A stretch of 64,000 nucleotides of DNA. It comes from Exiguobacterium sp. Leaf196 (GTDB lineage Bacteria > Bacillota > Bacilli > Exiguobacteriales > Exiguobacteriaceae). The stretch lies in NCBI RefSeq assembly GCF_001423965.1, contig NZ_LMPV01000007.1, positions 186,001-250,000 of the forward strand. The letters run 5' to 3'. Below, piece after piece: positions 299-58,648 of this stretch. The notes under the pieces are model-generated. The model made no database searches, was not told the origin of the DNA, and saw nothing but the letters and a program-made list of their open reading frames with translations. The first letter of the stretch is position 1. Each line of letters starts with the position of its first letter. The position numbers and the translations under genes were made by a program.

Positions 299-440
299 GT
301 CATCCCCGCTTTCCACAGGCGGGTGATAAGACCCGGCACCTCGCATTTCATGTGGTCTGCCGGGTCTTATCTAGCCCTGAAGAAAACGAAAATCGTGCTT
401 TCTTTTCCTGTAGGAGTCGAAGATGAACATTCACGTTCTC
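299..440 (+). repeat. structured intergenic repeat, copy 1
   Basis: This ~142 bp element has a diverged homologue in reverse orientation at 58505-58648, about three quarters identical by eye. It contains a short hairpin CCCGC/GCGGG (305-309 with 319-323), a perfect 14-bp stem (325-338 with 358-371) and a TCCTGTAGGA palindrome (406-415). Paired positions differ between copies in a way that keeps the pairing (CCTCCC/GGGAGG in copy 2). No ORF here looks genuine. It may be a structured RNA or a REP/MITE-like DNA element; neither is proven. Confidence 0.75.
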
Positions 441-459
441 TATTTATCGAATGAAAAAA

Positions 460-486
460 GGTGAGTTTCCAGTCCGGAAACTCACC
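460..486. terminator. bidirectional intrinsic terminator
   Basis: An 11-bp perfect stem (GGTGAGTTTCC with GGAAACTCACC) has an A-run on the left and a T-run on the right. It would end the leftward GGDEF-EAL gene and rightward transcription from the pepF side. Confidence 0.85.
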
Positions 487-541
487 TTTTTTCATTTTAA
501 GACACATACATATTAAAATCATGAATCATAATAGACTAATT

Positions 542-3328
542 TCATTCAGATAGAAGCTTTTGATGGTACTTCACGTACCAGACTCGAAACTCGTCGGCTG
601 GAATCGGTCTTGAATAATAGAATCCTTGCGCATACTCACAGTCAAGCACTCGCAAATGATCAGCTTGTTCAAGTTCTTCGATCCCTTCAGCGACGACGTC
701 ATACTTCAGCGTATGTGCGAGCTTGATGATCGTCTCGATGAGCGGTGCGTTCGAGCATGCATCCGGACCACTGATGAACGAACGGTCAATTTTCAGTCGC
801 TGAATTGGCAAGCGACTCAAGTACGACAAGGAAGAATACCCCGTACCAAAGTCATCAATCGCAAGACGATACCCCATCTGATGCAACTTCTGTAACGCAT
901 CAAACACGCGTGTGTCTGAAAAGACACCGAATGATTCCGTAATTTCCAGTTCCATCCGTTGTTCGATTCCCGGATGAACTTCTCGGACATCAGTCAGATA
1001 ATCGACGATCCGACCGGAGACGAGTTCTTTGACGGATAAGTTCGCTGAGACGCGTAGTACTCCGAGTTCCGTATCCTTCCACTCTTCGACTTGTCGGACC
1101 GTTTCGGCAACGACCCACATCCCGATCTCTTCAATCAACATGGATCGTTCGGCAATCGGAATGAAGATCGCCGGACTGATCATCCCCCGTTCAGGGTGGA
1201 ACCAGCGCAGGAGCGCTTCACAACCATCGACCTGACCGGTCGCGAGATTGATTTGTGGTTGATAGAACAATTGTAGCTCGTTCTTTTCGATCGCGTCCCG
1301 CAGTTCTCCTTCGAGGACGACGGATTCGAGATACTCGGCACTCATCCAGGATTCGAACCAGACCGGTCCGCCTTCTGTCTGTTGCTTCGCATGCTGCATC
1401 GCGATATCAACCGAAGATAACAAGGACGTGACGGCTACTGCATCATCGGGGTACCGCACCATACTCATACTGATGCTGACATTGACATACTCTCCATCGA
1501 TCTCATAGACGTGTTCGATGACTTGCTTCAATTTCTCGTAATCAACGATATCCTGTTGTGCAACCAACACGGCGAATTCGTCTCCCCCGATTCGTGCGGC
1601 TTGTCCCGTTCCGATGAAATGATGTTTGAGTCGATTGGCGAGATCTTTCAAAATCTGATCGCCTGCACCATGTCCGTAAATATCGTTGATCCGCCGGAAT
1701 TGTCGAACGCTGATGGTGACGAGTTCTCCCGGCTGAGGTGCTTTCAACGCATCTGTCATCTTTTGTTCAAAGCCATTTCGGTTCAACAGTCCCGTCAACA
1801 TGTCAAAGAGTGCGAGTTGTGTGATCCGTTCTTCGCGCCGGAACTGATCCGTTTCATCATGACAGGATAAGTAAAGTGCAACGCCTGTATCGTCTTCTTT
1901 GTTTGCGACATGGACGATGTTGACGAACATGTTTAAGATTTTTTCATCGAACAGCATCTTGCAACGAATCGTTTGACTATGGCCTTCCAATGATTGCTTC
2001 AACGCTCGCCGCATCCGATTCAAATCAGCCGGATGGATCAGTTCTTCGATCGTCCATCCCGCCGTCGCTTTCGTCAATTGTCGAAAGCGTTCGTTTCCGT
2101 TCACAATCGTATAGTCAGATGACATCGCAAGAATCGGATCTGTATTTTGTGAAAAGAGCGACTCGATTTCCGCTTTTTTCTGCTTGATTTCTTTTGTTTT
2201 CGCATCATTATGATCGAGCAACCCGGCGATGATGGCCGTCATCGTCCGAAACGCTTGGACGACAGGTTGAAAATCATTTCGCTCCGGTACGTCATAACCG
2301 GATTGCCGGCGGTCTTCTGCAAAGGTATTCGCTTCTCCTTTCAGTAAGGATAGATCTTGGCGAAAGGCGCGTAATAACGATAAGGTCAAAATCAACAGTC
2401 CAAGAATTAAGACACTGGTTACACCAAAGAGAAGCCAGGCATTGCGAATGATATGATGGCCTCGATCCTGCATTTCTTGTGCGACTTGGTTGAGTTCTTG
2501 ATCGTACAGACGATACATACTCGATTCATATTCTTCCGCTTGTCCTGCCAAAGCAGCGTACGTCTCGACTTCTGGAGCACGCAATAGATCATCGAGCGTT
2601 TGTGTATAGGCAGCCATCTGTTCCCGCATTGTTGCGACATCTTGACGTCCCATATCGTCCTGAAGAGGAATCACATCATACAGTGATTTGATGAGTGATG
2701 CCTGGCGTATCGGTAAATCAATCCGCATCTGCTGAATCCGTAATCGATCAATCGAGCTCGGTTCTTCCTTTTGACGGGCATCTTTTAAGATTTCAGCTGA
2801 TTTCCCAAGTTGTTCCTCCATCAGAATCAAATTGGAGAAGACATTATAATAAGACCCTGTCTCTTTGCTCAGTACGAGTTGATTGAAGATGATTTCACTC
2901 TTGAAATTCGTCATCGTCGTGAAGAAGCGATGGTTCGATTCATACCCTTGTCGTTGAAGCTTCTTGACTTCCGCCAAGACTTCTTCCCGTGCCGCCCCAG
3001 TCGCTTTCATGTTCGGTAGACGATCCGTTAGTTGTTCCAATGCACGATCGGACTGTCTGGACGCTTGTAGAACATCCGTGTCCTCATTCAATGATGAAAA
3101 ATAATAGCGTGTCACTTCTTGTTCAGCATGATTAAATGGTGTCACTTCAGCAATCGTTTTTCCTGATGCTTTGAAGCGATAACCTTCTTCGAGTGTTTTC
3201 ATCAAATGTTGACATGCGACGATCAATGCTAATAACCCGATGATCGCAATCATCCATGAGAACGTTTTATAGTAGGAGCGTCTTCGAAAAGCTTCTACGA
3301 TGAAGACTGGTGATAAACGTCGCAACAC
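542..3328 (-). CDS. membrane PAS-GGDEF-EAL c-di-GMP enzyme
   Basis: A 928-residue inner-membrane signalling protein. It has a transmembrane segment at about residues 22-42, a long extracytoplasmic helical region, a second segment near 300-322, a PAS-like domain around 390-500, GGDEF (motif GGDEF near 585) and a C-terminal EAL domain (EALLRW, DDFGTGYSS, QGFYYSRP). Both catalytic signatures look intact, so it could make or degrade c-di-GMP. No RxxD inhibitory site precedes GGDEF. The frame opens with GTG at 3328 after GGGAGGACGAT; the TTG one codon later has even better spacing. The sensory input is unknown. It is monocistronic, ending at the hairpin at 460-486. Confidence 0.9.
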   Translation of the reverse strand: MLRRLSPVFIVEAFRRRSYYKTFSWMIAIIGLLALIVACQHLMKTLEEGYRFKASGKTIAEVTPFNHAEQEVTRYYFSSLNEDTDVLQASRQSDRALEQLTDRLPNMKATGAAREEVLAEVKKLQRQGYESNHRFFTTMTNFKSEIIFNQLVLSKETGSYYNVFSNLILMEEQLGKSAEILKDARQKEEPSSIDRLRIQQMRIDLPIRQASLIKSLYDVIPLQDDMGRQDVATMREQMAAYTQTLDDLLRAPEVETYAALAGQAEEYESSMYRLYDQELNQVAQEMQDRGHHIIRNAWLLFGVTSVLILGLLILTLSLLRAFRQDLSLLKGEANTFAEDRRQSGYDVPERNDFQPVVQAFRTMTAIIAGLLDHNDAKTKEIKQKKAEIESLFSQNTDPILAMSSDYTIVNGNERFRQLTKATAGWTIEELIHPADLNRMRRALKQSLEGHSQTIRCKMLFDEKILNMFVNIVHVANKEDDTGVALYLSCHDETDQFRREERITQLALFDMLTGLLNRNGFEQKMTDALKAPQPGELVTISVRQFRRINDIYGHGAGDQILKDLANRLKHHFIGTGQAARIGGDEFAVLVAQQDIVDYEKLKQVIEHVYEIDGEYVNVSISMSMVRYPDDAVAVTSLLSSVDIAMQHAKQQTEGGPVWFESWMSAEYLESVVLEGELRDAIEKNELQLFYQPQINLATGQVDGCEALLRWFHPERGMISPAIFIPIAERSMLIEEIGMWVVAETVRQVEEWKDTELGVLRVSANLSVKELVSGRIVDYLTDVREVHPGIEQRMELEITESFGVFSDTRVFDALQKLHQMGYRLAIDDFGTGYSSLSYLSRLPIQRLKIDRSFISGPDACSNAPLIETIIKLAHTLKYDVVAEGIEELEQADHLRVLDCEYAQGFYYSRPIPADEFRVWYVKYHQKLLSE

Positions 3329-3403
3329 ATCGTCCTCCCTAAATTGTCATTATGTTTCTATATCGTCGTCTCATACCGTTTCCTGAAGTCGTTTTGGGTC
3401 AAT

Positions 3404-3447
3404 AAAAAGCACGTCTTCCCACATTTCTGCGAAAATAAGTGCTTTTT
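3404..3447. terminator. bidirectional terminator-like hairpin
   Basis: AAAAAGCAC (3404-3412) pairs with GTGCTTTTT (3439-3447) over a 26-nt loop. It lies between the CBS gene and the GGDEF-EAL gene and would end the CBS transcript on the minus strand. Confidence 0.6.
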
Positions 3448-3466
3448 TTACTGGTTTTATTCTTTT

Positions 3467-3889
3467 TTAATAACTGACGTTCTCACGCGCTACTTTTTTA
3501 GCAAAATAATCGATGATGTCACGTCGTCGGATAATCCCGATGAAATGTCTTCCGTCATCGATGACGGGTACGAAATTTTGATCCGTGATGACTTCAATCA
3601 TCTCTTCCATTTGCGCTGTGATCGAGACCGGTTTATAACGGACGCGTTGTTTGATATCAGTTAAACGTGTCTGCAAGACATGGTCATAATCGGCATGCTC
3701 GAGATTTGCTTCGAGCGCCCACAAGACATCGCCTTCTGTCAGCGTTCCTGCGTATTTCCCTTTATTATCAACGAGTGGGACTGACGTAAAACGATGATGT
3801 TTCATCTTTTCTAGTGCTTGTCTGACCGTTGACTCAGGATCTAAATATTTCACCTCATCTTTAGGTAATAAGAAAAAAGCAATATTCAT
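3467..3889 (-). CDS. two-CBS-domain protein
   Basis: A 140-residue soluble protein made almost wholly of two CBS motifs: roughly 12-60 (FTSVPLVDNKGKYAGTLTEG) and 80-135 (NFVPVIDDGRHFIGIIRRRD). CBS pairs bind adenosyl ligands and usually regulate a partner protein. Some small CBS proteins of Bacillota (DarB/CbpB) bind c-di-AMP; this one resembles them in size and layout but is not clearly the same orthologue. Start ATG after GGGAGGAACAGAA. It is monocistronic and divergent from the chemoreceptor. The ligand is unknown. Confidence 0.8.
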   Translation of the reverse strand: MNIAFFLLPKDEVKYLDPESTVRQALEKMKHHRFTSVPLVDNKGKYAGTLTEGDVLWALEANLEHADYDHVLQTRLTDIKQRVRYKPVSITAQMEEMIEVITDQNFVPVIDDGRHFIGIIRRRDIIDYFAKKVARENVSY

Positions 3890-4006
3890 TTCTGTTCCTC
3901 CCTAGCCACTCTGTGACACCCTTTTCATTTTATCATGAACCCTGCTCCGATTCATTTCTCAAATGATGAAAATCTCTACATAATTCCTTCATATTTGGTC
4001 ATACTA

Positions 4007-4016
4007 TTCCGATATT
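4007..4016 (+). promoter_or_regulatory. possible SigD-type -10 box
   Basis: TTCCGATATT lies 46-55 nt before the chemoreceptor ATG. Seven of eight bases match the motility sigma factor SigD -10 consensus GCCGATAT. The expected TAAA -35 is not clear, so the call rests on the -10 box and the gene's function. Confidence 0.4.
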
Positions 4017-4060
4017 CCAATTAGACAGAATTTAAAGACTATTTAGTTAGGAGAATACAT

Positions 4061-6268
4061 ATGCGCCTCCCGATCACGCGTCGTCTGTTCATCGGCCTTA
4101 TTTTATTGCCCGCTCTCACTCTCGGTGCCTCGACCTGGTTTTCTTATGATCAGACGAGCCAAACCGTCGATCAGCTTGTAGACTCGACGTCACAAACCGC
4201 TTTGAAGCAACTCGAACAATCCTTTACACGAATCATTGATGATACGAAGAAGGATACGACCTTACTCGCAGGTCTTCCGTTCAACCGAGCGGACGGCGCT
4301 TTACCGAACTACACGGATCAAACGAAACAACCCGATCCGGCTACTCCTCCGACGCAAAAAGCGAGCGATATCTATAGCGTCCTAGAAAAGTATGGTTCGT
4401 CGAAAATCGAAAACTCCTTCATTCAGTATGCGGATACCGCTGGTGGTTATCTCAACTGGCCAAAACAAGCGGCAGCACCTGGATACGATCCACGCAAGGA
4501 AGACTGGTACAAACAAGCACTTGATAACTCTAGCACCGTCATCATGAGTGAACCGCATTATGATGCGGCAACGAAACTATCCATCATCGGCTTCTCAAAA
4601 GCAACACTAGATGCACAGGCGAATATCAAAGGTGTCTTATCCATCTATAAAAGTATCGATCGCCTAGCAGAAGACATGAAGCGGATTGAAATCGGACAAA
4701 AAGGATTCGTCTTCAGCTATACCCAAAACGGGAAGATTGTCACCCATCCGAATAAAAATTATTTCTTCAAAAACGTAACGCAGATGAAAGAAGACGGAAA
4801 ACCTTACTTCTCTGCTCCTAAAGCAATGATGGAACAAGAGTCGGGTTCGACCATCATGGACGTCGCCGGTACAAAATCCGTCGTCATCTGGCAGACCTCG
4901 TCAAAAACAGGCTTTAAGTTAGCTGTCGTTCTTGACTATGCTTCCTTGTATGCACCGAAAGAAGAAATGCTCAGTCAATCGTTGATCAACTTTGTCGTCG
5001 CGATCGCCTTAGCCACGTTGATTGCTTGGTTGATTGGTCGATCAATCAATCGTCCTTTATCAACACTCCGTCAAGAAGCACTTGCCATCGCCTCTGGTGA
5101 TTTAAGGGCGCCAAAGCGTCCGACACGTTTCATCCAAGACGAGTTGACGGATCTCACCGAGAACTTTGACGCGATGCGGGCTCGACTACGTCAAACGATT
5201 CTCGCTTTGACGACTTCAGCGACGACCGTCCGGGATGCGTCTGCCGAACTCTCCACGAATGCAACGCACGTCCAAACAGCTTCTCTGCAAATCGGACGAA
5301 CGATGGAAGAGATCGCGGCGGCTGGTGAAACACAGACGAAACAAGCAGAGCGCTCGTCCCATGCCGTTCATGGCGTCAAGGAACGGTCGACGGCCATGCA
5401 ACACGTCGCGTCAACGACATTATCGGAAGTCTCGACCGTCGCTTCCGCAGCCGTTCGCGGAAGTGATGTAACGAAACAGACGATCGCCGATTTACTTGAT
5501 CATTCCGTCTCACTCGAACAGGAAATCCAAAATACGTCCGACTTCCTCGGTAAACGATCGGATGAGATTGCCAAAGTCCTTGGCACACTACAAGCAATCT
5601 CGAGTCAGACGAACTTGCTCGCCTTGAATGCCGCCATTGAAGCAGCACGCGTTGGCGAACAAGGGCGCGGATTCGCTGTCGTTGCGAGTGAAGTCCGAAA
5701 GCTTGCGGAAGAGAGTGACGCTTCTGCGAAGCAAATCAAACAACTCCTCGATCATATCCAAGACGAGACACAGACCGCGATGGGTGCGATGCACCATGTC
5801 ATGGATGATTTGAAACGATCGCTTGATTCCGTCAAGACGACCGGTGACGATTTCGAGCAAATCGCGGGTTCCGTCCAACATGTCTCACGCCGGACAGAAG
5901 AACTGACCGGTGACATCCATGCGTTGACGCAAGCGACGGAAGAAGTCTCAGACGCCATGGGGACGATTCTCGCTTTGACGGAAGAGAATGCCGCAGGTCT
6001 TGAGACGAGTAGTGCGAGCATCCAAGAAACGAACGCAACACTCGAATCCGTGACGTCTGCCGCTACGCATCTTGCAAAGATTGCTGGTAATCTCCATCAA
6101 CTGACGCTTGATTTCCAACTCGACGATACGAAAACATTGGTTCACGACTCCGTTGAAGAGGTCATACATTCGGAAGAATCCGTCTTGTATGAGGAAGCAG
6201 CTGTCGCATCACTTGACGAGGAACGACATGATTCGGATTTAAAGGTTCCTTCGTCTTCATCCGAATGA
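4061..6268 (+). CDS. methyl-accepting chemotaxis protein (dCache type)
   Basis: A 735-residue transmembrane chemoreceptor. TM1 is at about 9-29, followed by a ~250-residue extracytoplasmic dCache-like sensor ([11 protein letters not shown] and [17 protein letters not shown] are typical), TM2 near 300-320, a HAMP linker and a long methyl-accepting coiled coil. The signalling tip is recognisable ([20 protein letters not shown]). It would control CheA through CheW in response to small molecules; the ligand is unknown. Start ATG after TAGGAGAATACAT. The acidic C-terminal tail has no CheR/CheB docking pentapeptide. It is monocistronic. Confidence 0.95.
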
Positions 6269-6275
6269 TTTTTCA

Positions 6276-6299
6276 GCGAAGTCTTTTTTGAAAGGCTTC
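6276..6299 (+). terminator. intrinsic terminator
   Basis: CGAAGTC (6276-6282) pairs with GGCTTCG (6293-6299) and is followed by TTTTTC, just after the chemoreceptor stop codon. Confidence 0.65.
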
Positions 6300-6383
6300 G
6301 TTTTTCATTGTTTCGTTCTCGACTATCCGCGAAAGAGGACATACACTAGAAGCAATCCACTATATTTCGAAAGGAGTCGTGTC

Positions 6384-7541
6384 ATGAATCGCTTGTCGAC
6401 GTCTGACTTGACGCAAATCGCAGAGCACCTCTACGGGATGACTGGTTTTTTCGTCACGTACCGAGATCATCACGGTACTCCGCTGTCGTTACGTCCAGAA
6501 GCTCCATCTCATCCGGGAACCTTACTGATTGAGAACGAATGGCCAGTACTAAAAAAGACTCCTCTACTCTATACCCTGAAAGATGGTACAGCTTACCTCT
6601 TTTTAGATGTTCCGGAACAAGGAATGTACCGAATCGGTCCGGTTTTACTACAATCGGCTCTTTTTCGGGCACACATCCAAGATGAAGCCTACCATCAGTT
6701 CTATAAAGCCTTACCACGTACGACGGAGAATCGACTGATTGACTGTGCTCACCTGATGTATCGCTTGTTACACGAGGAAGCTTTACCGAAGCGCGAGATC
6801 GAACAACAGTCTGATATTCAGGAAGCTGAAATCCCTCTCGTCGCAGACGCCCCTTCCCATACGGGCGTCACGGCGTATCGAAAAGCCTGGCAACGGGAAC
6901 AACAAATCATTGATTGGATCGCAACCGGTCAAAGTGAGCGCCTCGCTACGACCTATTCCCTGCCGGCATATGGCGAGTTCGGAACACTCGCCCGTCATCA
7001 GCCGTTACGTGCAGAAAAGAATCTGTTGCTCGGGACTGTCCTCTTAAGCGCGCGTGCTGCGATTCGCGGCGGACTGGAACCGGATGAGGCATTCTCACTC
7101 AGCGACCGGATGATTGAGACGATTGAAGCGGCGACGAGTATCGCTGAGCTCCGGAATCGGCATGTACGGATTACCGTTTCGTTTGCCGAAGCCGTCAAGG
7201 AACTCCAAGCATTACGTCATTCGCCACATGTGTTGGCAGCCATTCGTTATATTCAGCAACACCTCTATGAACCTTTGTCCGTCTCGTCGATCAGTCAAGC
7301 CATCCATGTCTCGTCTAACTATCTGTCCGTCCTATTCAAAGATGAGACCGGTCTACCGCTCGCCCGCTACGTTATCCGGGAACGGATCCGGGAAGCGAAG
7401 CGCCTCTTGCGTTCTTCGGACGATTCCTTGCTGACGATCTCGAACAAGTTACACTTCTCGAGTCAAAGTCACTTCAGTCAAGCCTTCAAGCAGACGACCG
7501 GTGAGACCCCGACACATTATCGACAACGAAGTGAATTTTAA
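6384..7541 (+). CDS. AraC-family transcriptional regulator
   Basis: A 385-residue cytoplasmic DNA-binding protein. The C-terminal ~100 residues form two helix-turn-helices (LSVSSISQAIHVSSNYLSVL; SQSHFSQAFKQTTGETPTHY), the classic AraC/XylS pattern. The N-terminal ~270 residues are an uncharacterised sensor region. I start at ATG 6384 because GAAAGGAGT sits just upstream; the frame is open further, to 6288, without a ribosome site. It lies just upstream of the glycerophosphotransferase gene, but a separate leader follows it, so co-regulation is only possible. The effector is unknown. Confidence 0.85.
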   Translation: MNRLSTSDLTQIAEHLYGMTGFFVTYRDHHGTPLSLRPEAPSHPGTLLIENEWPVLKKTPLLYTLKDGTAYLFLDVPEQGMYRIGPVLLQSALFRAHIQDEAYHQFYKALPRTTENRLIDCAHLMYRLLHEEALPKREIEQQSDIQEAEIPLVADAPSHTGVTAYRKAWQREQQIIDWIATGQSERLATTYSLPAYGEFGTLARHQPLRAEKNLLLGTVLLSARAAIRGGLEPDEAFSLSDRMIETIEAATSIAELRNRHVRITVSFAEAVKELQALRHSPHVLAAIRYIQQHLYEPLSVSSISQAIHVSSNYLSVLFKDETGLPLARYVIRERIREAKRLLRSSDDSLLTISNKLHFSSQSHFSQAFKQTTGETPTHYRQRSEF

Positions 7542-7598
7542 GAGAATCGTACCTTTTTTTCGTTTTGTGATATCCTATTCAACAGGAACTATTTTCGT

Positions 7599-7619
7599 GA
7601 ATCCGTCTTGAGCGGATTC
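7599..7619 (+). promoter_or_regulatory. leader hairpin before the glycerophosphotransferase gene
   Basis: GAATCCG and CGGATTC form a 7-bp stem ending 12 nt before the AAAGGAG ribosome site. It could be a weak attenuator or a transcript-stabilising hairpin; its U-tract is poor. Confidence 0.4.
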
Positions 7620-7643
7620 TTTCAACAAAAAAGGAGAATCAAC

Positions 7644-9785: not shown

Positions 9786-9794
9786 CGATTATCA

Positions 9795-9830
9795 AAATGA
9801 GAAATGGCTTAATAAAGCCGTTTCTCATTT
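9795..9830 (+). terminator. intrinsic terminator
   Basis: A long stem, AAATGAGAAATGGCTT against AAGCCGTTTCTCATTT with one mismatch, is followed by a T-run right after the glycerophosphotransferase gene. Confidence 0.9.
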
Positions 9831-9869
9831 TTTGTTCCCACCCATTAATTGCTAAGCGTAAAGACAAAA

Positions 9870-9898
9870 ATGCCTCCTTCCTTAATGGAAAGAGGCAT
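9870..9898 (-). terminator. intrinsic terminator of rlmCD
   Basis: ATGCCTCCTTCC pairs with GGAAAGAGGCAT with one mismatch. On the minus strand it is followed by TTTTTGTCTTT, directly after the rlmCD stop. Confidence 0.85.
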
Positions 9899-9906
9899 GA
9901 ACGATT

Positions 9907-43948: not shown

Positions 43949-43967
43949 AAATCCCAACAGCATAACT

Positions 43968-44138
43968 ACTTATCGAGAGCGACCGAGGGATTAGGCCCAA
44001 CGACGTCCGGCAACCACCTATCAGGAACGGTGCCACATCCTACAGAATGGATTCATTCTGAGAGATAAGTTACGAAATCTTACACTTTCGTCGCTTTTTT
44101 CTGGTTGCTCTGCTACTAGGAAAAAGCGACTTTTTTTT
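43968..44138 (+). promoter_or_regulatory. SAM-I (S-box) riboswitch with terminator
   Basis: The aptamer runs from ACTTATC (43968-43974), pairing with GATAAGT (44064-44070), and contains the S-box core: GAGGGATTAGGCCC, then CCGGCAACC and GGTGCCA. The expression platform is a terminator, GTCGCTTTTTTC with GGAAAAAGCGAC (44090-44130), followed by eight Ts. With SAM bound the terminator forms and metNIQ is off. Confidence 0.95.
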
Positions 44139-48281: not shown

Positions 48282-48563
48282 TCACATCTTCTGTCCACAA
48301 ACCTGACACATTTCATGAGAACGCTCTTCCTTTAGTGAAATGCTTTCTTTTAAACGATTCTTGAAAACATTTAGTACAGAGACTAAAGTATATTCCCCTT
48401 TTCTTAAAATGTGTGAACATTCTTTTATTTCATTCTCAGCGAATTTTGGTTGCTCTCCGAATCTTGACTCGGTATCATTAAAATTCGTAAGCCAAACTTT
48501 CAATGCTTTTCCAAATAACATAATGATATGAAGGAGCTGACCTATGGTTTTACTGTATTTCAT
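48282..48563 (-). CDS. doubtful small ORF, possible gene remnant
   Basis: A 93-codon open frame fills the otherwise empty 48194-48543 gap. The peptide composition is protein-like and ends in a CQVCGQKM motif, but no ribosome site precedes the first ATG (48563) or the internal ATG near 48519. Its first 20 bases overlap the opposite-strand membrane protein gene. The region is AT-richer than its surroundings. It may be a decayed gene or a chance frame. No family recognised. Confidence 0.25.
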   Translation of the reverse strand: MKYSKTIGQLLHIIMLFGKALKVWLTNFNDTESRFGEQPKFAENEIKECSHILRKGEYTLVSVLNVFKNRLKESISLKEERSHEMCQVCGQKM

Positions 48564-48900: not shown

Positions 48901-48914
48901 GTCCGCTTTTTTTG
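48884..48914. terminator. bidirectional terminator overlapping a stop codon
   Basis: AAAAAAGCGGAC and GTCCGCTTTTTTT pair; the loop contains the TAA of the membrane protein gene. It also serves the convergent nuclease gene. Confidence 0.88.
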
Positions 48915-48917
48915 ATT

Positions 48918-51668
48918 TTATTGGTATTTCGTTGTTTCAGCTAGTTTGTATTTGTTCGACAATTCAAGCCAGATCGTTTTGCCTTTGATTGTCTTCACTT
49001 GAATGTATGGACGCCCCTGTGACACGCGAAGTGCGAGCAATTCACCTTGTTGATCGGCGTGTGTTTCACTAGCTTTATCCCAGTTGCGACCCAATTTACG
49101 TTCAATGAAGATATGTTTTCCTTTTTGAACAGCACGCCAGATACCGACTTCTGCCGTTCCTTTGACCGGTACTGCCGTTTGTGCACCTTGAATCGAGATG
49201 ATCGCTGGATCGTGGTCACTCGCGCTACCGTCTGCTTCCATGTAATCCGAGTTGATGTTGACGATATCCGACGATGTATACGACTTCAAGTTATTCGAAA
49301 TTAAGATATGGTCGAGTACTTGCGCATTTCCGTTGTAGACGTACGAGTAACGCTCAGATTTCGGAAGATCATCGACTGTGTTCCAGAGATTTTTCCCTTT
49401 CAGGATGTCTAACGTTTCTGAGAACTGGAAGTCGTTGAGGTCACCAAGAACGACGACATTCGAATCTTTGACTTCCGTCTTCAATTCAGAAACGAAGTTT
49501 TGGACGATGTTCGCAATCGCATGACGCTGGACTTCACTCTTACGAACGACCGGTTGGTTTTTACCGAAGTCAGCTCCATCGCCACCTTTTGAGTTGAAGT
49601 GGTTGACGATGACATGATATGAATCACCATTAAAGAGGAATTCCGCGACGAGCGGTTTCCGCGAACTCGCGAAGTTCGGATCCGTCGGCTGAATGCGACC
49701 CGGGTTTTTCGTCAGCTTACCATTTTCAACTGACACGGCTTCCGTCGCTCCACCTTTTTCTCCTGGTGCGAGTGATACACGCGCTGGATTGTAGAGGAAC
49801 CCGACACGGATGTTTCCGCCTGGTTGCCCGCCGTCCTTTTTATCTTCTGGTGCGATGTCCGTATACGCATACCGGACACCTGTTTTTGCTTCGATCGCTG
49901 CGATCAATGTCTCAAATGATTTCGAAGCGTCGACTGTGCCGCTATCCGTTGCGCCGTCGTTATCCTGCATCTCTGTCAAACCAACGATGTCTGGTGTCTT
50001 CAGGAATGTCGCGATGCCTTCCGAGACACGATCAACTTTTCCAGCATCGGCTGTCGACGCGAAGTTCTCGACGTTGTATGAAGCGACAGTCAGACGTGAT
50101 TCACCCGTTTCGATGTTCGTCGGTTGACGTTCCGCTTCGCTCGTAACGAGTTTCGGAAGGTCTGCTGCTTTTGCGAGTACTTTGTAAGCCGAATAGTTGT
50201 AGCTCATGACACCCTCAATCGTTCCATCGAATGTGTCTCCGGCTTTCGCACGATACGATGAACTTCCCATCTCGACGAACAAGCGCTCCGGATTGACGTT
50301 GTCCTTCGTCAGAATCGGTGTGCCACGTTTCGTATAGACCTTGTTTGCGTCTGTTTGTGTACGAACTGGGATCGTCCGGTTCGCTTGTGGTCCTGTGACG
50401 ATCGCGTTCGGTAAAGCAACACGCATGCCTTCTAAGCTTTCGTATAAATCGATCGCATCTTCTTTCGGGTCAAACTGAGCGAAGGAATCGTTATCGACGA
50501 CTTGAGTCGGAATCAAGACGCCTTTATCACCAAGGACGATACTCGCTGGTAACCCTTCGTTGAGCGCACCCTTTACGAGATTGACCGTACTGATTTCCGT
50601 AACGGCTAGATCCGTATCGAATTTATCGCTGTATCCGCCGAGGATCCATTCTTTGACGTAACCTGTCGTCGCGACCTTTTGTCCAACGGCAGCACCGTGG
50701 TTTTTCGCGTAGACGAGAATACCTTCTGATGTCCGGCTGTCGTTATCCGGATTTGGATCCTGCATGTAGAAGTTGTTCGCATCAACGACATACGTGACGA
50801 CGCCCGTCGTCCGGACGAGTTGATCTGCGTATGGTGATGTGTGCGCGACGCCTTGGATACTGCTGATTTTAGTGATTGGTGGTGCGATGTAGTACTTGAA
50901 TGTCGAGACAGCTGACGTTTTCCCGTCCTTGACAGCAACTGCTTGAATCGTCACTTCGTCATTGATCGTAATCGGTGATGTGTAAACCGGACTGTCAACA
51001 GTCGGTGTCGTACCATCAACTGTATAATGGATCGTTCCTTCACCTGACAGTGTCACTTGATCCCCACGCTCGACCTCACCGACTGGAGTAGCCGTTGGTG
51101 CAACGAGAATATCGCCGGCTTCCGTCTGATGGCTACCGAGATTCGTCAGTGTATCGACAGGAAAGCTCGTCCACTGTGATGGTTCATACGTCTTAACACC
51201 TGATGTAACACCTGATTTCCGAACAAGTGTCGTGTCTTTTGCGAAATCAACGGATGAACCGATCGGTCCGATGATATCAAGGACAACGTCGCCCTTTTTT
51301 AATGCAACCGGATCATTTCCGTTGAAGTTCAACGAACCCGTCGTCATTTGCGCTTTTGCTTTGATGTCTGCATTCGCACTTGAATTCGCGATAACGAATG
51401 TTTTACCTGGATCTACTTTCCCCGATAATGTGATTTTGGACTCAGATGGTCCACCGTTCGTGTATTGAACGAGTGTATAGTCTGCTAAATCAATGATTTG
51501 CCCCGATCCATTGTATAGCTCGATTGCCTTGTTGTTACTTGTTCCTTCTATGTATTCAGACAAGATGACGCCTTCGCCTTCTGCCCCGACAAGACCCGCT
51601 TGTGGAAGGATTCCTGCAGTCAATACTCCGGCCAATGCCCACTTTCCAAACGTACTGCCGTATTTCAT
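48918..51668 (-). CDS. large secreted nuclease: LTD, chitobiase-like, OB-fold and EEP domains
   Basis: A 916-residue exported protein. The signal peptide (~1-31) is followed by a lamin-tail domain (~35-155, VILSEYIEGTSNNKAIELYN), a chitobiase C-like domain (~190-260, YTVDGTTPTVDSPVYTSP), an OB-fold region (~265-510) and an endonuclease/exonuclease/phosphatase domain (~530-830). EEP catalytic motifs are SYNVENF, TEMQDND, NHFNSKGGD, LGDLNDF and SDHDPAI. It resembles YhcR/ExeM-type extracellular nucleases and probably scavenges phosphate or nucleosides from DNA. No sortase motif. ATG 51668 follows AGGGGGTCACATC. Confidence 0.88.
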   Translation of the reverse strand: MKYGSTFGKWALAGVLTAGILPQAGLVGAEGEGVILSEYIEGTSNNKAIELYNGSGQIIDLADYTLVQYTNGGPSESKITLSGKVDPGKTFVIANSSANADIKAKAQMTTGSLNFNGNDPVALKKGDVVLDIIGPIGSSVDFAKDTTLVRKSGVTSGVKTYEPSQWTSFPVDTLTNLGSHQTEAGDILVAPTATPVGEVERGDQVTLSGEGTIHYTVDGTTPTVDSPVYTSPITINDEVTIQAVAVKDGKTSAVSTFKYYIAPPITKISSIQGVAHTSPYADQLVRTTGVVTYVVDANNFYMQDPNPDNDSRTSEGILVYAKNHGAAVGQKVATTGYVKEWILGGYSDKFDTDLAVTEISTVNLVKGALNEGLPASIVLGDKGVLIPTQVVDNDSFAQFDPKEDAIDLYESLEGMRVALPNAIVTGPQANRTIPVRTQTDANKVYTKRGTPILTKDNVNPERLFVEMGSSSYRAKAGDTFDGTIEGVMSYNYSAYKVLAKAADLPKLVTSEAERQPTNIETGESRLTVASYNVENFASTADAGKVDRVSEGIATFLKTPDIVGLTEMQDNDGATDSGTVDASKSFETLIAAIEAKTGVRYAYTDIAPEDKKDGGQPGGNIRVGFLYNPARVSLAPGEKGGATEAVSVENGKLTKNPGRIQPTDPNFASSRKPLVAEFLFNGDSYHVIVNHFNSKGGDGADFGKNQPVVRKSEVQRHAIANIVQNFVSELKTEVKDSNVVVLGDLNDFQFSETLDILKGKNLWNTVDDLPKSERYSYVYNGNAQVLDHILISNNLKSYTSSDIVNINSDYMEADGSASDHDPAIISIQGAQTAVPVKGTAEVGIWRAVQKGKHIFIERKLGRNWDKASETHADQQGELLALRVSQGRPYIQVKTIKGKTIWLELSNKYKLAETTKYQ

Positions 51669-51751
51669 GATGTGACCCCCTATTGAATTTTCTGACACTT
51701 CTTTATAATATCAGATTATATTCAAAAGAGTGTATATTTTTCGTAAAAAAA

Positions 51752-51785
51752 GATACCATCCTTCGTAAATGAAAGAAATGGTATC
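51752..51785 (-). terminator. intrinsic terminator of the YdaT-like gene
   Basis: GATACCAT and ATGGTATC pair, with TTTTTTTA following on the minus strand. Confidence 0.8.
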
Positions 51786-51797
51786 GCTTACAACATT

Positions 51798-51977
51798 TTA
51801 TTGTTCGTCTTTGTGACTTTCGTACCATTTTTCAGCTTGTGATGTCGCAATCGGAATAGCGCGTCCCTCTTCATACCCTTCTTCTAACAAAGCGTTCGCG
51901 ATCTCAATCGCTTTTTTTCGAAGCGGTGGATCAAAGTTCTTGAATGAATCCGGATAGTTGTTCTCATTCCATGGCAT
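51798..51977 (-). CDS. YdaT-like small stress protein
   Basis: A 59-residue protein, MPWNENNYPDSFKNFDPPLR at the start and an EEGYEEGRAIPIATSQAEKW core. I recall this pattern from YdaT, part of the SigB general stress regulon in B. subtilis; no biochemical role is known. ATG 51977 has a GGGGGTGACGAC site. The frame continues 28 codons upstream, through what looks like its own promoter, so that extension is unlikely to be translated. Confidence 0.7.
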   Translation of the reverse strand: MPWNENNYPDSFKNFDPPLRKKAIEIANALLEEGYEEGRAIPIATSQAEKWYESHKDEQ

Positions 51978-52000
51978 GTCGTCACCCCCTTCTTTCCGCT

Positions 52001-52027
52001 TTACCCGAAAAAAGGCATAAAAAAAAC
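52001..52027 (-). promoter_or_regulatory. possible SigB promoter of the YdaT-like gene
   Basis: On the minus strand GTTTTT (52022-52027), 15 nt, GGGTAA (52001-52006) resembles the SigB consensus GTTTAA-N12-15-GGGTAT. It would give a very short leader before ATG 51977. Confidence 0.4.
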
Positions 52028-52079
52028 GCCTCATCAGCGTGTCGTTGTTTTTGGTTGTCATGAGAATCGAGGATTACAG

Positions 52080-52210
52080 GTGATCAAAACACCTGAAACG
52101 ACGAAAGCCCTACCTCTCTTTCGTTGTTACGGCTCCTTGGCCGCGCCAGCTGAATCAAGCATTTTAGCAAGAATCGTGATACGTCTGCAACGGACGCATG
52201 ATACTGGGAT
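52080..52210 (-). ncRNA. unassigned structured region upstream of the YdaT-like gene
   Basis: Within the 516-nt gap 52062-52577 I see a row of hairpins on the minus strand: CAGGTG/CACCTG, AACGAAAG with CTTTCGTcGTT, CGGC/GCCG, and TGCGTC with GACGTA, which uses a G-U wobble only on this strand. An ACGC-loop-GCGT stem followed by eight Ts lies downstream at ~52020-52042. This could be a leader RNA or a separate small RNA. It matches no riboswitch class I know. Confidence 0.4.
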
Positions 52211-52506
52211 TTTTAGAAATAGCTCGGGAATGAGCGGAAAAGTATCGATTGGAAGGTTTATCTTGCTGGGTCGACTTCTTCCCGTAGTATGAAGAAGGAC
52301 AAAATAAAAGCGATGACTTATGTCTGACTCATTTGTCAGTAGCGGTCTAAAAATCCTGACCTGTCGATTTAATTGTATGATATGGATTGAAGATTCTCAC
52401 ATGAGTGATCATCCCCGATTCATGACTTATATTAATTTATCATACTTTCTTTTATAAAGTCAATCTTTCTTTTAGAAAATCGTTTTCCCTCGTCTTGGAA
52501 TCAGAG

Positions 52507-52535
52507 TTGCACCTGCTACAAAAGCCGAGTATCGT
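52507..52535 (+). promoter_or_regulatory. promoter of the yyaL-type gene
   Basis: TTGCAC, 17 nt, TATCGT, 43 nt before the start codon. The rest of the 52211-52577 stretch holds no other clear signal. Confidence 0.4.
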
Positions 52536-52577
52536 GAAGAGGACTTATTACTATAGAAGAAACGAGGGAAATCCATC

Positions 52578-54608
52578 ATGTCGAATCGACTTATCCATGA
52601 AACGAGTCCCTATCTATTGCAACATGCCCACCACCCTGTCGATTGGTATCCCTGGGGTGAGGATGCCTTCACTGCCGCGCGCGAGACTGGTAAGCCAATC
52701 TTTTTATCAATCGGGTATTCGACGTGTCACTGGTGCCATGTGCTGGCACACGAAAGTTTCGAAGATGAAGAAACGGCACGACTCTTAAATGAACGCTATA
52801 TCTCGATCAAAGTCGACCGAGAAGAACGTCCCGATATCGATCATTTGTACATGACGGCTGCTCAAGTCATGAACGGACAAGGCGGCTGGCCGCTGAGCGT
52901 CTTCATGACAGCGGATCAACAGCCATTTTATATCGGCACGTATTTTCCAAAAACGCCTCAGTTCAATCGTCCGAGTTTTCGTCAAGTGACACTCCAGCTC
53001 AGCGAACAATTCCGCCGTTCACCAGAGAAAATCGCACAAGTCGGTCAGAATATGTCGCAGACGCTTCGCGACGTATTGCAGCCTGCGACGTCTACCCGTA
53101 CTTGGAATGAATCGATCATTCATGACACTTTTGATCAAGCGATGCGACAATTTGATCGTCAACATGGCGGATTCGGAGAGGCACCGAAGTTCCCGTCGCC
53201 TGCCCTGCTCCGTTTCTTGCTCGATTATTATCAGTTCGCGGAAGACGAGACGGCACTTCATATGGTCATGCGATCGCTGATCGCGATGCGTGACGGCGGG
53301 ATGACGGATCAAGTCGGCTACGGTCTATTCCGCTACACGGTCGATGCCAAGTGAGAAATTCCTCATTTCGAGAAGATGCTCTATGACAATGCCTGGTTTG
53401 CGACAGCATGCATCGAAACGTATCAAGCATCGGGTCAAACTCGCTTCCGTCGCTATGCAGAAGAAGTGCTGACGTTTGTAGAACAGGAATTGACCGCACC
53501 GGACGGCACCTTTTATGCCGCACTGGATGCAGATAGCGAAGGGGGCGAAGGACATTTTTATACGTTCACGGAGCGTGAGCTGACCGACTTGCTCGGACTA
53601 AACGCGCTGTTCCCCCGCTTCTATCATGCTTCATCATCGGGAAACTTTGAGGGACGGAACGTCTTTTACCGGACAGGACGAACACTCGAGGCATTCGCAC
53701 GTTCTATTCACTTGTCGCTTGCTGAAACAGCGTCGCAACTCGAACACGAGCGCCAAATTCTTCTTCGTGCGCGAAATGAACGCATGCGACCGTTCCGTGA
53801 TGATAAACGGTTGACATCGTGGAATGCGATGATGATCTCGACGTTCGCTAAAGCCGGTCGTGTGTTTGGCGAACCGTATTATACACGTGTCGCAACGCGT
53901 GCCATGACGTCACTCGAGCGATTCGTTCGTACTGAACAGCATCTTGCAGTCCATTACCGCGATGGACAAGCAACCGGTCACGGTTTCCTCGATGACTATG
54001 CGTACATGATTGATGCACATCTTGAACTATTCCAGTCTACACACCATGCTCTCCATCTAAAGGAAGCTTTAGCATTTGCAGATGTGCTGCAGGACCAGTT
54101 CCAGACAGCAGATGGTTATTTTTATCTGACGTCGTCACGCTCCGACAAACTACTTGTTCGTCCACTCGATCTGTATGATGGCGTCACACCTGCCGGAAAT
54201 AGCATTGCCTTGAACGCCCTTTTCACGCTCAGTCGTCTTACTGGTCGTCTCGTTTATCAAGAGAGTGCTGAACGGGCTCTCGCAACTTTAATAGAGGAAG
54301 TCGAGCAACAACCGACCGGATTCGCCTCACTTGTCAGTACCTTCACCTACCGGCAGATGGAACCGAAGGAATTGATTATCTTGCTTCCGGAAGAAGTAGA
54401 CATCCCGCTCGAAATCAAGCAACTGCAACAGTTACGCTTACCGGAAGTTGCTTTGTTGATCGGTACGAAGCGCGACCTTCTTCCGCACGTCCCACTGCTT
54501 GCGGAGTATCCAGAACCAGACGCACCAACGGCTTATCTCTGTCATGATTTTTCCTGCGAACGTCCGACGACGCGTTTAACGGAAATCCTCGCACGTCTCA
54601 ATATCTAA
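52578..54608 (+). pseudogene. yyaL: yyaL-type thioredoxin-domain protein (DUF255), interrupted by one stop codon
   Basis: The reading frame encodes a ~676-residue protein of the YyaL/spermatogenesis-associated-20 family: an N-terminal thioredoxin-like domain with STCHWCHV ([10 protein letters not shown] follows) and a C-terminal alpha/alpha-barrel epimerase-like domain. A TGA at 53352-53354 cuts the frame after residue 258. The frame resumes unchanged (EIPHFEKMLYDNAW), and the family normally has Trp here (W.VPHFEKMLYDN), so TGG probably became TGA. No frameshift is seen elsewhere. A sequencing error or UGA read-through must be excluded. Start ATG after AACGAGGGAAATCCATC. Confidence 0.85.
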
Positions 54609-54615
54609 CCATATC

Positions 54616-54646
54616 CCCTCTTGTTTAAAAAAACAGGAGGGTTTTT
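54616..54646 (+). terminator. intrinsic terminator
   Basis: CCCTCTTGTTT and AAACAGGAGGG pair with one mismatch, then TTTTT, just after the yyaL-type gene. Confidence 0.85.
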
Positions 54647-54698
54647 CAAAAAACCAGACCCCTTTTTTCAAAATTATTCAATCTTTTGTTCATAAAAA

Positions 54699-54707
54699 TC
54701 CGATATT
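54699..54707 (+). promoter_or_regulatory. possible SigD-type -10 box
   Basis: TCCGATATT, the same nine bases as before the chemoreceptor at 4061, lies 103-111 nt before the autolysin TTG. A TAAA -35 at the right distance is not evident. A small hairpin (CGTCC/GGACG near 54774-54787) lies later in the leader. Confidence 0.35.
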
Positions 54708-54809
54708 GTCGATAGTAAGGATAGGCAATAGATTTTACAACTTAGACTTAGACATCCTAGAAGCCGATTCCGTCCATCCGGACGAATATCTACTAGGAGG
54801 AAAGATACT

Positions 54810-57800
54810 TTGAACACGACATCATTCTCGAAGACCTTGAAGGTGTTCGCAAGCTTTCTCATCGTTTTTAGCATCGTTTTGACATCTCTTCCGATGGCTG
54901 AAGCAGCAACGACGAAAGCGACGACCTACCGTCTGTCTACCGATAGTTATCTGTACGATAAGACGGCATCTTCTCGGAAACGCTTGTTGACGATCAAGAC
55001 CGGAACTGTCGTTTCATCTACGTATGCTTCTGGCTCGTTCAGAAGGGTCACATATGCTGGAAAAACGGGATATGTCGCGTCGAAATACCTCACGCTGTAT
55101 GAAAAGAAACAAACCGTTTCAGGACAGCGCTACCTCGTCCTCAAAAAGACACCGATCAAAAAGACAGCAGTGGATACTGCAACGACGATCGGCACGTTGA
55201 ACGAAGAGGATGTGTACTACACGTCACAACGTGTGACGAATCCATATGGCGAGACATGGTACCGCGTCAAATATGACGGCAAGACAGGCTATGTCGCAGC
55301 TGGCGCAAAAGCGGTCGCATATAAAAAGGTGACGAACACGACGTTAAAAACGATCGATGCTTACATCTTGCGTCAGTACGCTGGAACAGGTTATCCCAAA
55401 GTTCAGACCATTCCATCTGGAAAAGACGTCAAAGTCGTCGGTCGGATCGAAAAATGGGTCAGTATCCAGTACGACGGGAAGACAGGCTACATGCATCAAG
55501 ATGCGTTCGCCTCTTCTGAAAAGCAAAATGTGACATTAATTCCACAAACACGGTATCAGACGAAAAGTGTGACACCACTTTACAGTCAAGCCGAGGCAAA
55601 ACAAAGTCTAGCGAGTCTACCAAAAGGTACGGTCGTCACCTCGAATGCTAAGACGGCAATCTATCACCAAGTCACATATGCCGGAAAGACAGGGTATGTC
55701 TTATCCGCTACGTTGGCAGAATACACAGAAAAAACAAAGCTTCCGTCTTCACGCTTCTTGTTGACATCACCACTCGTCATCAAAACGACACCTGCTGCGA
55801 ATGGAGAAGCACTTGCGACACTGAGTGCCGGAAACGTCTATTATACGAAAACACGTGTGACGAATCCGCTCGGCGAAACATGGCATCAAGTATCGAAGGA
55901 AGGTAAAATCGGATTCGTACCAGCCAATCAAAGGACAGCGATTGCATACGAAACTGAATCAAACCTCTCTTTAAAAACGACGGCATCGACGGCGATTCGT
56001 TCGTATGCTGGTCCATCGTATGCAACAGTACAAACGATTCCGAGCAATACCGTCATCAAAATTTCTGGACGGATCGGGAATTGGTACCGTGTCAGTTATA
56101 ACGGTAAAACGGGATATGCCGCATCAAACACGTTTACGACACTTGCGACGAAACAAACGATTTCAGGCGCCCGCTTCGAACTGGAAAACACGGTTTCCAT
56201 CAAATCTTCACCCGACGCACAAGCATCGACACTTGCAACACTGCAGAGCGGTGACATCTATTACACGACACAGCTCGTCACGTCAAACGGACAGCAATGG
56301 CATCGTGTCAGTAAGGATGGAAAGACGGGCTACATTCCTGTCAACCAAGGCAAGAGTGTGCAGTACCAATCGGACCGGATCGTCATGCAGACGACGGCTT
56401 CGACTCCACTTCGCTCGTATGCCGGAAACACTTACGCGACCGTTAAAACGATTCCTTCTGGTACAAGCATTACTGTCACTGGAATGATCGATGACTGGTA
56501 TCGCGTGACGTACAGCGGGAAGACGGGTTATATCGCTTCACGTTACGCCAAGGAAAAAGTCATGACGCAATCGATTCCTTCTTCTTATTATCGCCTTGAA
56601 CGTACCGTCGAAGTGAAAGCATCGCACCATGCGACAGCAGAAACCGTCGTTCGCCTTTCTTCTGGAGACGTCTATACGACGAATCAAGTCGTCACGAATG
56701 GTCATTCCGAGCAATGGCATCGCCTGACAGTCGATGGGAAGACCGGCTACGTTCAAATCAATCAAGGTTCACCGGTCACCTATGAGAGCGTTAATAACCA
56801 CCGCTATCAAGCAATGACGGATACGACACTCCAGTCGGATGCCGGTTCAGCCTATGCGACAGTGACGAAGCTTCCAAAAGCAGCCGTCGTTCAAGTAACA
56901 GGCAGTCTCGATCAGTGGTTAAAGATCAGCTACGCTGGGAAAAATGGTTATGTCTTAAAATCAACACTGACACCATATACCGAAACGAAAAAGATCACAG
57001 GTGCACGCTTCTTGGCGAATGAATCGCTCGTCGTCAAACAAGCACCGGACGATCAAGCATCGAATGTCACGACACTCGCGTTCGGAAATGTCTATTACAC
57101 TTCTGCTTTGATCACGTCGTACACGAACACGTCGTGGCATAAAGTAACGATCGACGGGAAAACGGGTTATATCCGTACCGGACAAAATACGTCATCGATC
57201 AAATATGAATCAAAGGACAAAATGTATGTACGGGCAACATCAGACGCTGCCTTACGGTCTTACGTTGGTAGCTCCTATAATGTCATCAAGACGATTCCGA
57301 AAAACCTCGTCGTTACTGTCTCCGGTCAAATCGGTGATTGGTATAAGATTTCTTATGATGGAAAAAGTGGGTACGCGTATAAGGGGGCGTTCGTGACGAC
57401 TTCTTCGAAATTAAACGTCTATAACTCTGTCGCGACACCGTATACGTTCGATACCTTCATCAGCGCCCAGATGAAACTGAACCCACCACCACAAACGGAT
57501 ATCTATAAAGATAAATTGATGTATGTCAGTACGGGTTACGTCCGTCTCGGCGGCGCACTTGATCCAGTCAATGGAACAATTGCGACTGTCACAGCGACGA
57601 CACCACTTAACATCCGCTCTGGTGCTTCGACGGCGAGTCACGTCTACGGTCAGTTCCAACCTGGTCGAATGATTCGCGTCTATCAATCAGTCAGTGGCTT
57701 CTATACGACAAAGCCACGTGTCTACACGAGTGCGACAAGTGGTTACTCAACGATCCAATGGTTGAATGCCCTCGAAACGGACGTCCGTGATGTTGCCGAT

Positions 57801-58397
57801 CCACTGAAAGTCGACCGCAACTCTTCTGCCTTCTATCAGTTCCTCGATCTCTCGAAAACGACAGGAGCATCGGCTGCGACACTTGATAAGATGTTAGCGA
57901 ACGTAACGAAAGGACTCGGGATCTTCAATAAGTGTAGCAACGGTAGTTGTGGACAAGCGTTCATCGATGCTGGTCAAAAATACAGCGTCAACGAAGCTTA
58001 CTTGATCTCACACGCTTTACTTGAGACAGGCAATGGACAATCGACACTCGCAATGGGTGTGACATGGAATGGACGTAAAGTCTATAACATGTATGGAATC
58101 GGTGCGTATGATTATGATGCGATCAACACCGGCGCTGCTTATGCCTATAAAATGGGCTGGTTTACATCAGAAGCGGCAATCGTCGGTGGTGCTGAATTCA
58201 TCAGCACGAAGTACATCCATAATGAATACGGACAAAACACGCTCTACAAGATGCGTTGGAGTCCGATGCGTCCTGGTAGCCATCAATACGCAACAGACAT
58301 GGGATGGGCCGTTAAGCAAACGTCTCGAATCTATTCACTCTATCAACAGATGGATAGCTACACAGCTGTCTTTGATATTCCAGTCTTCGCTCGTTAA
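54810..58397 (+). CDS. multi-SH3b cell-wall hydrolase with C-terminal glucosaminidase domain
   Basis: A 1195-residue exported protein. A signal peptide (~1-33, cut after AEA) is followed by twelve SH3b-type repeats, each ending in a GKTGY-like motif (DGKTGYVAAG, AGKTGYVLSA, DGKTGYIRTG and variants). They alternate between two types, so the unit is a pair of ~150-160 residues. A linker leads to a GH73-like N-acetylglucosaminidase domain (~1040-1180, SHALLETGNGQSTLA with the catalytic Glu). It likely cleaves peptidoglycan during growth, separation or motility. The start is TTG after CTAGGAGGAAAGATAC. Confidence 0.9.
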   Translation: MNTTSFSKTLKVFASFLIVFSIVLTSLPMAEAATTKATTYRLSTDSYLYDKTASSRKRLLTIKTGTVVSSTYASGSFRRVTYAGKTGYVASKYLTLYEKKQTVSGQRYLVLKKTPIKKTAVDTATTIGTLNEEDVYYTSQRVTNPYGETWYRVKYDGKTGYVAAGAKAVAYKKVTNTTLKTIDAYILRQYAGTGYPKVQTIPSGKDVKVVGRIEKWVSIQYDGKTGYMHQDAFASSEKQNVTLIPQTRYQTKSVTPLYSQAEAKQSLASLPKGTVVTSNAKTAIYHQVTYAGKTGYVLSATLAEYTEKTKLPSSRFLLTSPLVIKTTPAANGEALATLSAGNVYYTKTRVTNPLGETWHQVSKEGKIGFVPANQRTAIAYETESNLSLKTTASTAIRSYAGPSYATVQTIPSNTVIKISGRIGNWYRVSYNGKTGYAASNTFTTLATKQTISGARFELENTVSIKSSPDAQASTLATLQSGDIYYTTQLVTSNGQQWHRVSKDGKTGYIPVNQGKSVQYQSDRIVMQTTASTPLRSYAGNTYATVKTIPSGTSITVTGMIDDWYRVTYSGKTGYIASRYAKEKVMTQSIPSSYYRLERTVEVKASHHATAETVVRLSSGDVYTTNQVVTNGHSEQWHRLTVDGKTGYVQINQGSPVTYESVNNHRYQAMTDTTLQSDAGSAYATVTKLPKAAVVQVTGSLDQWLKISYAGKNGYVLKSTLTPYTETKKITGARFLANESLVVKQAPDDQASNVTTLAFGNVYYTSALITSYTNTSWHKVTIDGKTGYIRTGQNTSSIKYESKDKMYVRATSDAALRSYVGSSYNVIKTIPKNLVVTVSGQIGDWYKISYDGKSGYAYKGAFVTTSSKLNVYNSVATPYTFDTFISAQMKLNPPPQTDIYKDKLMYVSTGYVRLGGALDPVNGTIATVTATTPLNIRSGASTASHVYGQFQPGRMIRVYQSVSGFYTTKPRVYTSATSGYSTIQWLNALETDVRDVADPLKVDRNSSAFYQFLDLSKTTGASAATLDKMLANVTKGLGIFNKCSNGSCGQAFIDAGQKYSVNEAYLISHALLETGNGQSTLAMGVTWNGRKVYNMYGIGAYDYDAINTGAAYAYKMGWFTSEAAIVGGAEFISTKYIHNEYGQNTLYKMRWSPMRPGSHQYATDMGWAVKQTSRIYSLYQQMDSYTAVFDIPVFAR

Positions 58398-58452
58398 GGA
58401 GACGATGAACCAACGTCTTTAAATCAATAAATGTGTTCCAACATCAAAAAAA

Positions 58453-58497
58453 GGAAAGACCGTTCTGGTGATCCCACCGGAACGGTTTTTCCTTTTT
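58453..58497. terminator. bidirectional intrinsic terminator
   Basis: A ~17-bp stem with mismatches (GGAAAGACCGTTCTGGT with ACCGGAACGGTTTTTCC), A-run left, T-run right, between the autolysin gene and the repeat. Confidence 0.88.
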
Positions 58498-58504
58498 CAT
58501 TAGT

Positions 58505-58648
58505 AGCGAACGAGCAGGATCATCCTCAACTCCTGCAGGAAAAGAAAGCGCGCTCGACGCTTTCGACAGGGATAGGTAAGACCCGGTAGACCGCATAAAA
58601 TGCAAGGATGTCGCAGCTTACCTCCCACCTGCGGAAAGGGAGGATGAC
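58505..58648 (-). repeat. structured intergenic repeat, copy 2
   Basis: Reverse-oriented homologue of 299-440. It carries CCTCCC/GGGAGG (58621-58626 with 58638-58643) where copy 1 has CCCGC/GCGGG, a perfect TCCTGCAGGA palindrome (58531-58540), and a GAAAGCG/CGCTTTC stem in place of copy 1's imperfect one. It lies 80 nt beyond the end of the short kdpD. The stretch 58649-58728 holds only a weak CCCT/AGGG hairpin. Confidence 0.75.

Follow-up and report, generated by a model that had tools for sequence, protein, structure and literature searches.

Two intergenic repeats of Exiguobacterium sp. Leaf196 belong to a branched-hairpin superfamily and are probably old insertions of a terminator-associated mobile DNA element

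We analysed a stretch of 64,000 nucleotides from Exiguobacterium sp. Leaf196 (contig NZ_LMPV01000007.1, positions 186,001 to 250,000; hereafter the window), in which an initial annotation, made from the letters alone, had singled out two similar intergenic repeats, here called copy 1 and copy 2. Both are members of a superfamily that occurs across several families of the class and has a conserved branched-hairpin core. Named relatives of a protein encoded in the window confirm that the source is an Exiguobacterium. For each copy, some relatives have it and others do not, and each lies just 5' of a gene terminator. We consider that both are probably old insertions of a non-autonomous DNA element, similar to miniature inverted-repeat transposable elements (MITEs), from a terminator-associated family linked to the IS1182 insertion sequences (IS). 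The IS1182 link of the window copies comes from their relatives, not from their own ends, and we infer the mobiliser.

A covariance model built from 46 copies on an RNAalifold structure (R1) matched the window at 289-438 (+) and 58508-58658 (-), placing the two copies where they had been reported. The reported identity of about three quarters from end to end was also accurate, as 109 of 141 aligned columns are identical (77%). Chance similarity of two unrelated hairpin regions is refuted by the score of this alignment, 120 against a maximum of 25 over 300 shuffles of copy 2, and by R1 matches in all 18 genomes of the genus. The fold of each copy was better than those of all 200 of its own shuffles. 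No coding capacity is evident in the printed repeat sequences, whose core is ~150 bp. Rfam at its gathering score matched the window twice, both times away from the repeats, and in a search of 12 loci at E values up to 5 no match at a repeat reached its gathering score.

The initial annotation had described a two-copy repeat and proposed a covariance-model search of this genome and its relatives. A search of this kind with R1 found many further copies, and covariation appeared with more sequences, contrary to two of the outcomes that had been named as refuting the proposal. Of the 20 R1 matches in the source genome, five, both window copies among them, score 143-160 bits and the other 15 score 28-73 bits. 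Within the genus, counts per genome ranged from at least 12 to at least 109, and are lower bounds with at most 124 candidates scored per genome, while none of seven genomes of a sister genus matched. The copies behind R1 came from a nucleotide search with copy 1, in which 15 of 18 genus genomes and none of 43 others matched; of its 66 matches, 53 were at least 110 bases long, and 46 of these were aligned after seven near-identical or truncated copies had been omitted. In a class-wide draw of 250 genomes, R1 matched 13, nine in the genus and four elsewhere, the latter weakly (best 4.9e-7). A pattern search for the core matched 43 of 398 genomes of the class and 12 of 145 genera; the reversed pattern, used as a control, had no hits in any row listed, and the motif AGCCKC opposite GGGTCT could be seen by eye in many core matches from other genera. 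No plasmid or phage record matched the repeat. Tandem or clustered copies occur in genome G014 (C1:1724569-1725091, 1064567-1065459 and 1090444-1091393) with spacings of ~196, 370 and 244-278 bases. Near-identical variant copies with a long A/T-rich central hairpin occur in other families of the class (L123, L129-L143 in G044 and L146 in G341). None of the works listed in a literature search names the superfamily, although most subscription journals lay outside its reach and the result is not proof that the superfamily is unpublished.

Covariation strongly supports a common long branched fold. In the 46-row alignment, 31 of the fold's 53 pairs had changed on both sides, and such changes filled 217 cells, whereas shuffles gave 65.5 and slid controls 10-38; the lead over the slid controls is partly by construction because the fold was drawn after viewing the alignment and the two window folds. 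Both-sided change was found in 12 of 15 pairs of helices 1 and 2 (the closing helix), 3 of 8 pairs of the second helix of copy 1 (Table 1), 7 of 18 pairs of the long internal stem, and 5 of 7 pairs of the GAAAACG/TGCTTTC hairpin. Compensatory differences had been proposed from the two window copies, and they are real; their site, however, is this long fold and not the local hairpins to which most had been assigned. The CCCGC/GCGGG hairpin and the TCCTGTAGGA self-palindrome had no pair changed on both sides (0 of 8), whereas the GAAA..TTTC hairpin noted at the same time is part of the covarying fold. A structure taken from RNAalifold only, with two local hairpins in the middle, had 1 of 8 pairs covarying and was replaced by the long-stem fold.

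It had further been suggested that copy 2 has largely lost the long stem of copy 1. In fact copy 2 keeps the stem, which in the family has two nearly universal mismatches, one of C·U and one of G or U opposite G. These two positions are unpaired in 44 and 45 of the 46 rows, and copy 1 is the only row paired at both. Since all other 45 rows are unpaired at one or both positions, the perfect long stem of copy 1 is the exception. The copy at the same place in G366, a genome of the same species, has the usual family mismatches.

We compared the insertion sites using a joined-flank search in eight relatives together with 20 fetched sites. The site of copy 1 is empty in G012, G015, G016 and G004, and in the first three of these a terminator closely similar to the one after copy 1 is intact. 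In G001 (L368) and G002, the same intergenic space, which lies between convergent genes, has a copy in the opposite orientation with a different terminator adjoining it. The site of copy 2 is empty in G012, where a similar terminator hairpin stays in place, while copy 2 has an internal deletion in G001 and has left apparent arm remnants in G004. R1 found copy 2 at one of ten named Exiguobacterium kdp loci. We had considered the 3' terminator as part of the window copies and dropped this idea because the empty sites keep a similar terminator.

Table 1. Positions of the two repeat copies, the helices of copy 1 and the adjoining terminators in the window.
Feature	Position	Strand	Remarks
Copy 1, subfamily A, whole branched fold	289..438	+	R1 match 147.1 bits; fold z -7.2
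Copy 1, closing helix, 5' arm	289..308	+	pairs with 418-438
Copy 1, closing helix, 3' arm	418..438	+	family covariation
Copy 1, second helix, 5' arm, TCCACAGG	312..319	+	pairs with 407-415
Copy 1, second helix, 3' arm	407..415	+	family covariation
Copy 1, long internal stem (321-338/358-377) and apical hairpin	321..377	+	family covariation
Copy 1, GAAAACG/TGCTTTC hairpin, arms 382-388/396-402	382..402	+	family covariation
Host terminator 3' of copy 1, outside the insertion	454..492	+	closely similar hairpin in G012, G015 and G016, which lack copy 1
Copy 2, subfamily A, whole branched fold	58508..58662	-	R1 match 143.3 bits; fold z -5.9
Host terminator 3' of copy 2, outside the insertion	58446..58497	-	similar hairpin at the G012 site, which lacks copy 2

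Elsewhere in the window, Rfam matched BsrC (RF01410) at 52088-52173 (+), with 73.7 bits (gathering score 38), and a SAM (S-adenosylmethionine) riboswitch at 43967-44071 (+), with 81.5 bits, which served in the control for G·U and A·C described below. In a frame of 361 amino acids (aa) at 58729-59817 (-), a KdpD sensor domain precedes a universal stress protein domain, and there is no kinase match.

Relatives of the window copies tie the family to mobile DNA. In G014, the core lies within elements of 268-388 bp that bear inverted repeats. From 60 places fetched in this genome, 56 elements were located by pattern and 14 had both repeats in reach; by eye, 11 of these 14 had a terminator-like hairpin on both sides (nine clear, two diverged). 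An insertion sequence of G014 has the same TGTAGACAA ends as the repeat elements and a 304-aa frame that scores 245.6 bits with the IS1182-family model NF033551, below its cut-off of 270. G008 has a 1661-bp insertion sequence with similar ends, whose transposase matches the IS1182 family (NF033551, 5.8e-141) and which has the hairpin repeated in four of five copies. We had also asked whether the outer arms were derived from palindromic targets, an idea dropped because the G014 expansion has similar arms that were copied together with the core.

Within the clade of the source genome, 15 of 19 fetched loci with GRGGCTGACTC-type ends proved to be elements of 191-244 bp. At the 597-kb site, an element lies where G366 has a different terminator hairpin, and at the 457-kb site G012 and G015 likewise have a different terminator hairpin in place of the element; both replacements concern subfamily-B elements. 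A small hairpin that shares the outer stem occupies the 674-kb site in G002 and G012. G366 lacks the element at the 626-kb site, with no clear hairpin in its place, and has a shortened copy at the 1058-kb site. Five of the 11 subfamily-A copies printed from six other species (G003, G006, G008, G010, G013 and G017) lie within 328-373 bp elements having GGGGCTGACTC-type ends, which ties the subfamily of the window copies to the GRGGCTGACTC-type elements. A 1.9-kb span between two such ends (L246, G016:C1:638705-640626) was a candidate for a full insertion sequence and was rejected, as inspection by eye showed an IS3-like insertion within a repeat element. An insertion sequence of G016 has GAGGCTGGGACATAA ends.

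The main rival to an old mobile element is a functional structured RNA, either a 3' untranslated region (UTR) element or a small RNA ending at the neighbouring terminator, which selection on RNA structure has kept. We regard this as unlikely, although it has the strong covariation in its favour, and the placement of copies also appears at first to support it. We classified the 53 subfamily-A copies by the flanking open frames, taking the closest ones of 100 codons or more. Convergent genes flank 41 copies and co-directional genes 12, of which 10 are in sense and two in antisense; divergent genes flank none. In 51 copies an open frame on the same strand lies upstream. A terminator occurs within 110 nt on the 3' side of 34 of the 53 copies and on the 5' side of nine, compared with 22 of 212 shuffled cases. 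However, these copies represent 19 locus groups, and by group the contrast falls to 11 of 19 on the 3' side versus 10 of 19 on the 5' side, the latter counted on either strand. Because convergent contexts are symmetric and the copies amount to so few locus groups, the placement data favour location at 3' ends over a choice of strand. Other copy sets have mixed orientation. Between species, moreover, copies have been lost, internally deleted or found in opposite orientation, and the terminator is a property of the host site.

Selection on RNA of this strand should leave more G·U in the stems than A·C, its complement. This was not the case. Family stems contain 65 cells of G·U and 71 of A·C, and single changes within locus groups number 167 of each. 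In columns of the G014 expansion where a Watson-Crick pair is commonest, 12 cells of G·U stand against 26 of A·C, a count that leaves out 149 G·U cells from three columns in which G·U predominates. A small control, the SAM riboswitches of the genus (31 sequences, 17 distinct), gave 21 of G·U versus four of A·C, or 11 versus four in Watson-Crick-majority columns. The pairing therefore carries no mark of selection on RNA of this strand, a result weakened by the size of the control. Thus, of the earlier argument from covariation to selection on structure, the covariation stands and the step to a selected RNA is weakened. A dispersed repeat may covary strongly without being a functional RNA, and a simple count of G·U and A·C offers an inexpensive check on such a reading.

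We favour a mobile DNA element since the repeats are short, multi-copy, dispersed, without a transposase gene and variably present between close relatives. Under this explanation, IS1182-type DDE transposases would move the repeat elements in trans, recognising stem-loops, including terminators, by their structure. Complementarity of the arms may persist because the DNA has to fold in order to serve as substrate or target; alternatively, the two arms may correct each other during replication. The window copies would be immobile descendants without recognisable outer repeats, now residing in 3' untranslated regions.

Several observations weigh against this explanation. Target-site duplications had been suggested as a check, and comparison with relatives revealed no clean one at either window copy. 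We recognised no outer repeats at the window copies and saw neither replacement nor duplication of a hairpin there. The hairpin is not repeated in three of the 14 G014 elements and in one of the five copies of the G008 insertion sequence, and no full-length transposon with exact GRGGCTGACTC ends was present among 24 DUF772 loci fetched. The small SAM control belongs here as well, as does the number of double changes within locus groups, 180 versus 55 expected, which counts in favour of a structured RNA. Some locus groups mix copies in opposite orientation, probably from separate insertions, and this inflates the excess of double changes. To the extent that the excess is not so inflated, it possibly reflects continuing selection on pairing.

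Two other origins were weighed alongside that of a mobile family linked to IS1182. The core might be an independent mobile element with its own mobiliser, to which the IS1182-type ends of some copies were added later. This is consistent with the core having TGTAGACAA-type ends in some elements, GRGGCTGACTC-type ends in others and neither kind at the window copies, and with the core pattern in 11 further genera, but we found neither an enzyme nor a mechanism for the core by itself, and the copy 1 insert has no clean duplication, leaving this origin rather improbable. The initial annotation had offered a dispersed structured RNA or an element of the MITE or repetitive extragenic palindromic (REP) kind. 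The MITE-like part of that proposal is borne out by the many copies, the empty sites and the relatives with inverted repeats, whereas a strict REP family, or one of REP doublets forming hairpins (REPIN), moved by a REP-associated tyrosine transposase (RAYT, of the Y1 type) is very improbable. Although the repeats are extragenic, palindromic and numerous as such a family would be, PF01797 has no match in the source genome or in G010, which has at least 109 copies, and 9 of 18 genus genomes lack a match. Matches in the genus are mostly to frames of 132-140 aa, which we take to be the size of IS200 transposases.

A broader conjecture, which we put forward only tentatively and hold to be doubtful, is that the branched core with its two conserved mismatches is a portable module in at least 12 genera of the class, riding in elements with different ends and steering them to intrinsic terminators, such that mobile DNA would swap, double and supply terminators across the genus. 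If this were true, mobile terminators would be rewriting the 3' ends of genes. Apart from this conjecture, the analysis makes of a puzzling pair of repeats a case in which structure-directed transposition can be tested.

The repeats resemble REP and REPIN sequences in being extragenic palindromes with many copies, and differ in being longer and branched and in that the source genome has no Y1 transposase match. By description, they are like the bcr-type, Bcr1 and Bhal-1 repeats of Bacillus, which are dispersed, intergenic and able to fold; Bhal-1 is listed with a length of 74 bp and 36 copies in B. halodurans (PMC2267715). The closest parallel that we considered is IS1272 of the IS1182 family. 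IS1272 is reported to replace stem-loops, and the model of its authors has a further pathway in which the entire stem-loop is duplicated (PMC5678879). For a related composite transposon, three of seven sites reported were at predicted terminator hairpins (PMC4923244). Unlike IS1272, the repeats have no transposase, measure ~150-390 bp and have a common branched core, and the window copies show neither stem-loop replacement nor duplication. As with IS1272, the targets are stem-loops, terminators included, and patterns of both replacement and duplication are seen around related Exiguobacterium elements; the genus also has IS1182-family transposases. Comparisons among Exiguobacterium genomes allow both outcomes proposed for IS1182-type elements, stem-loop replacement and duplication, to be read in a setting where the stem-loops are the terminators of genes.

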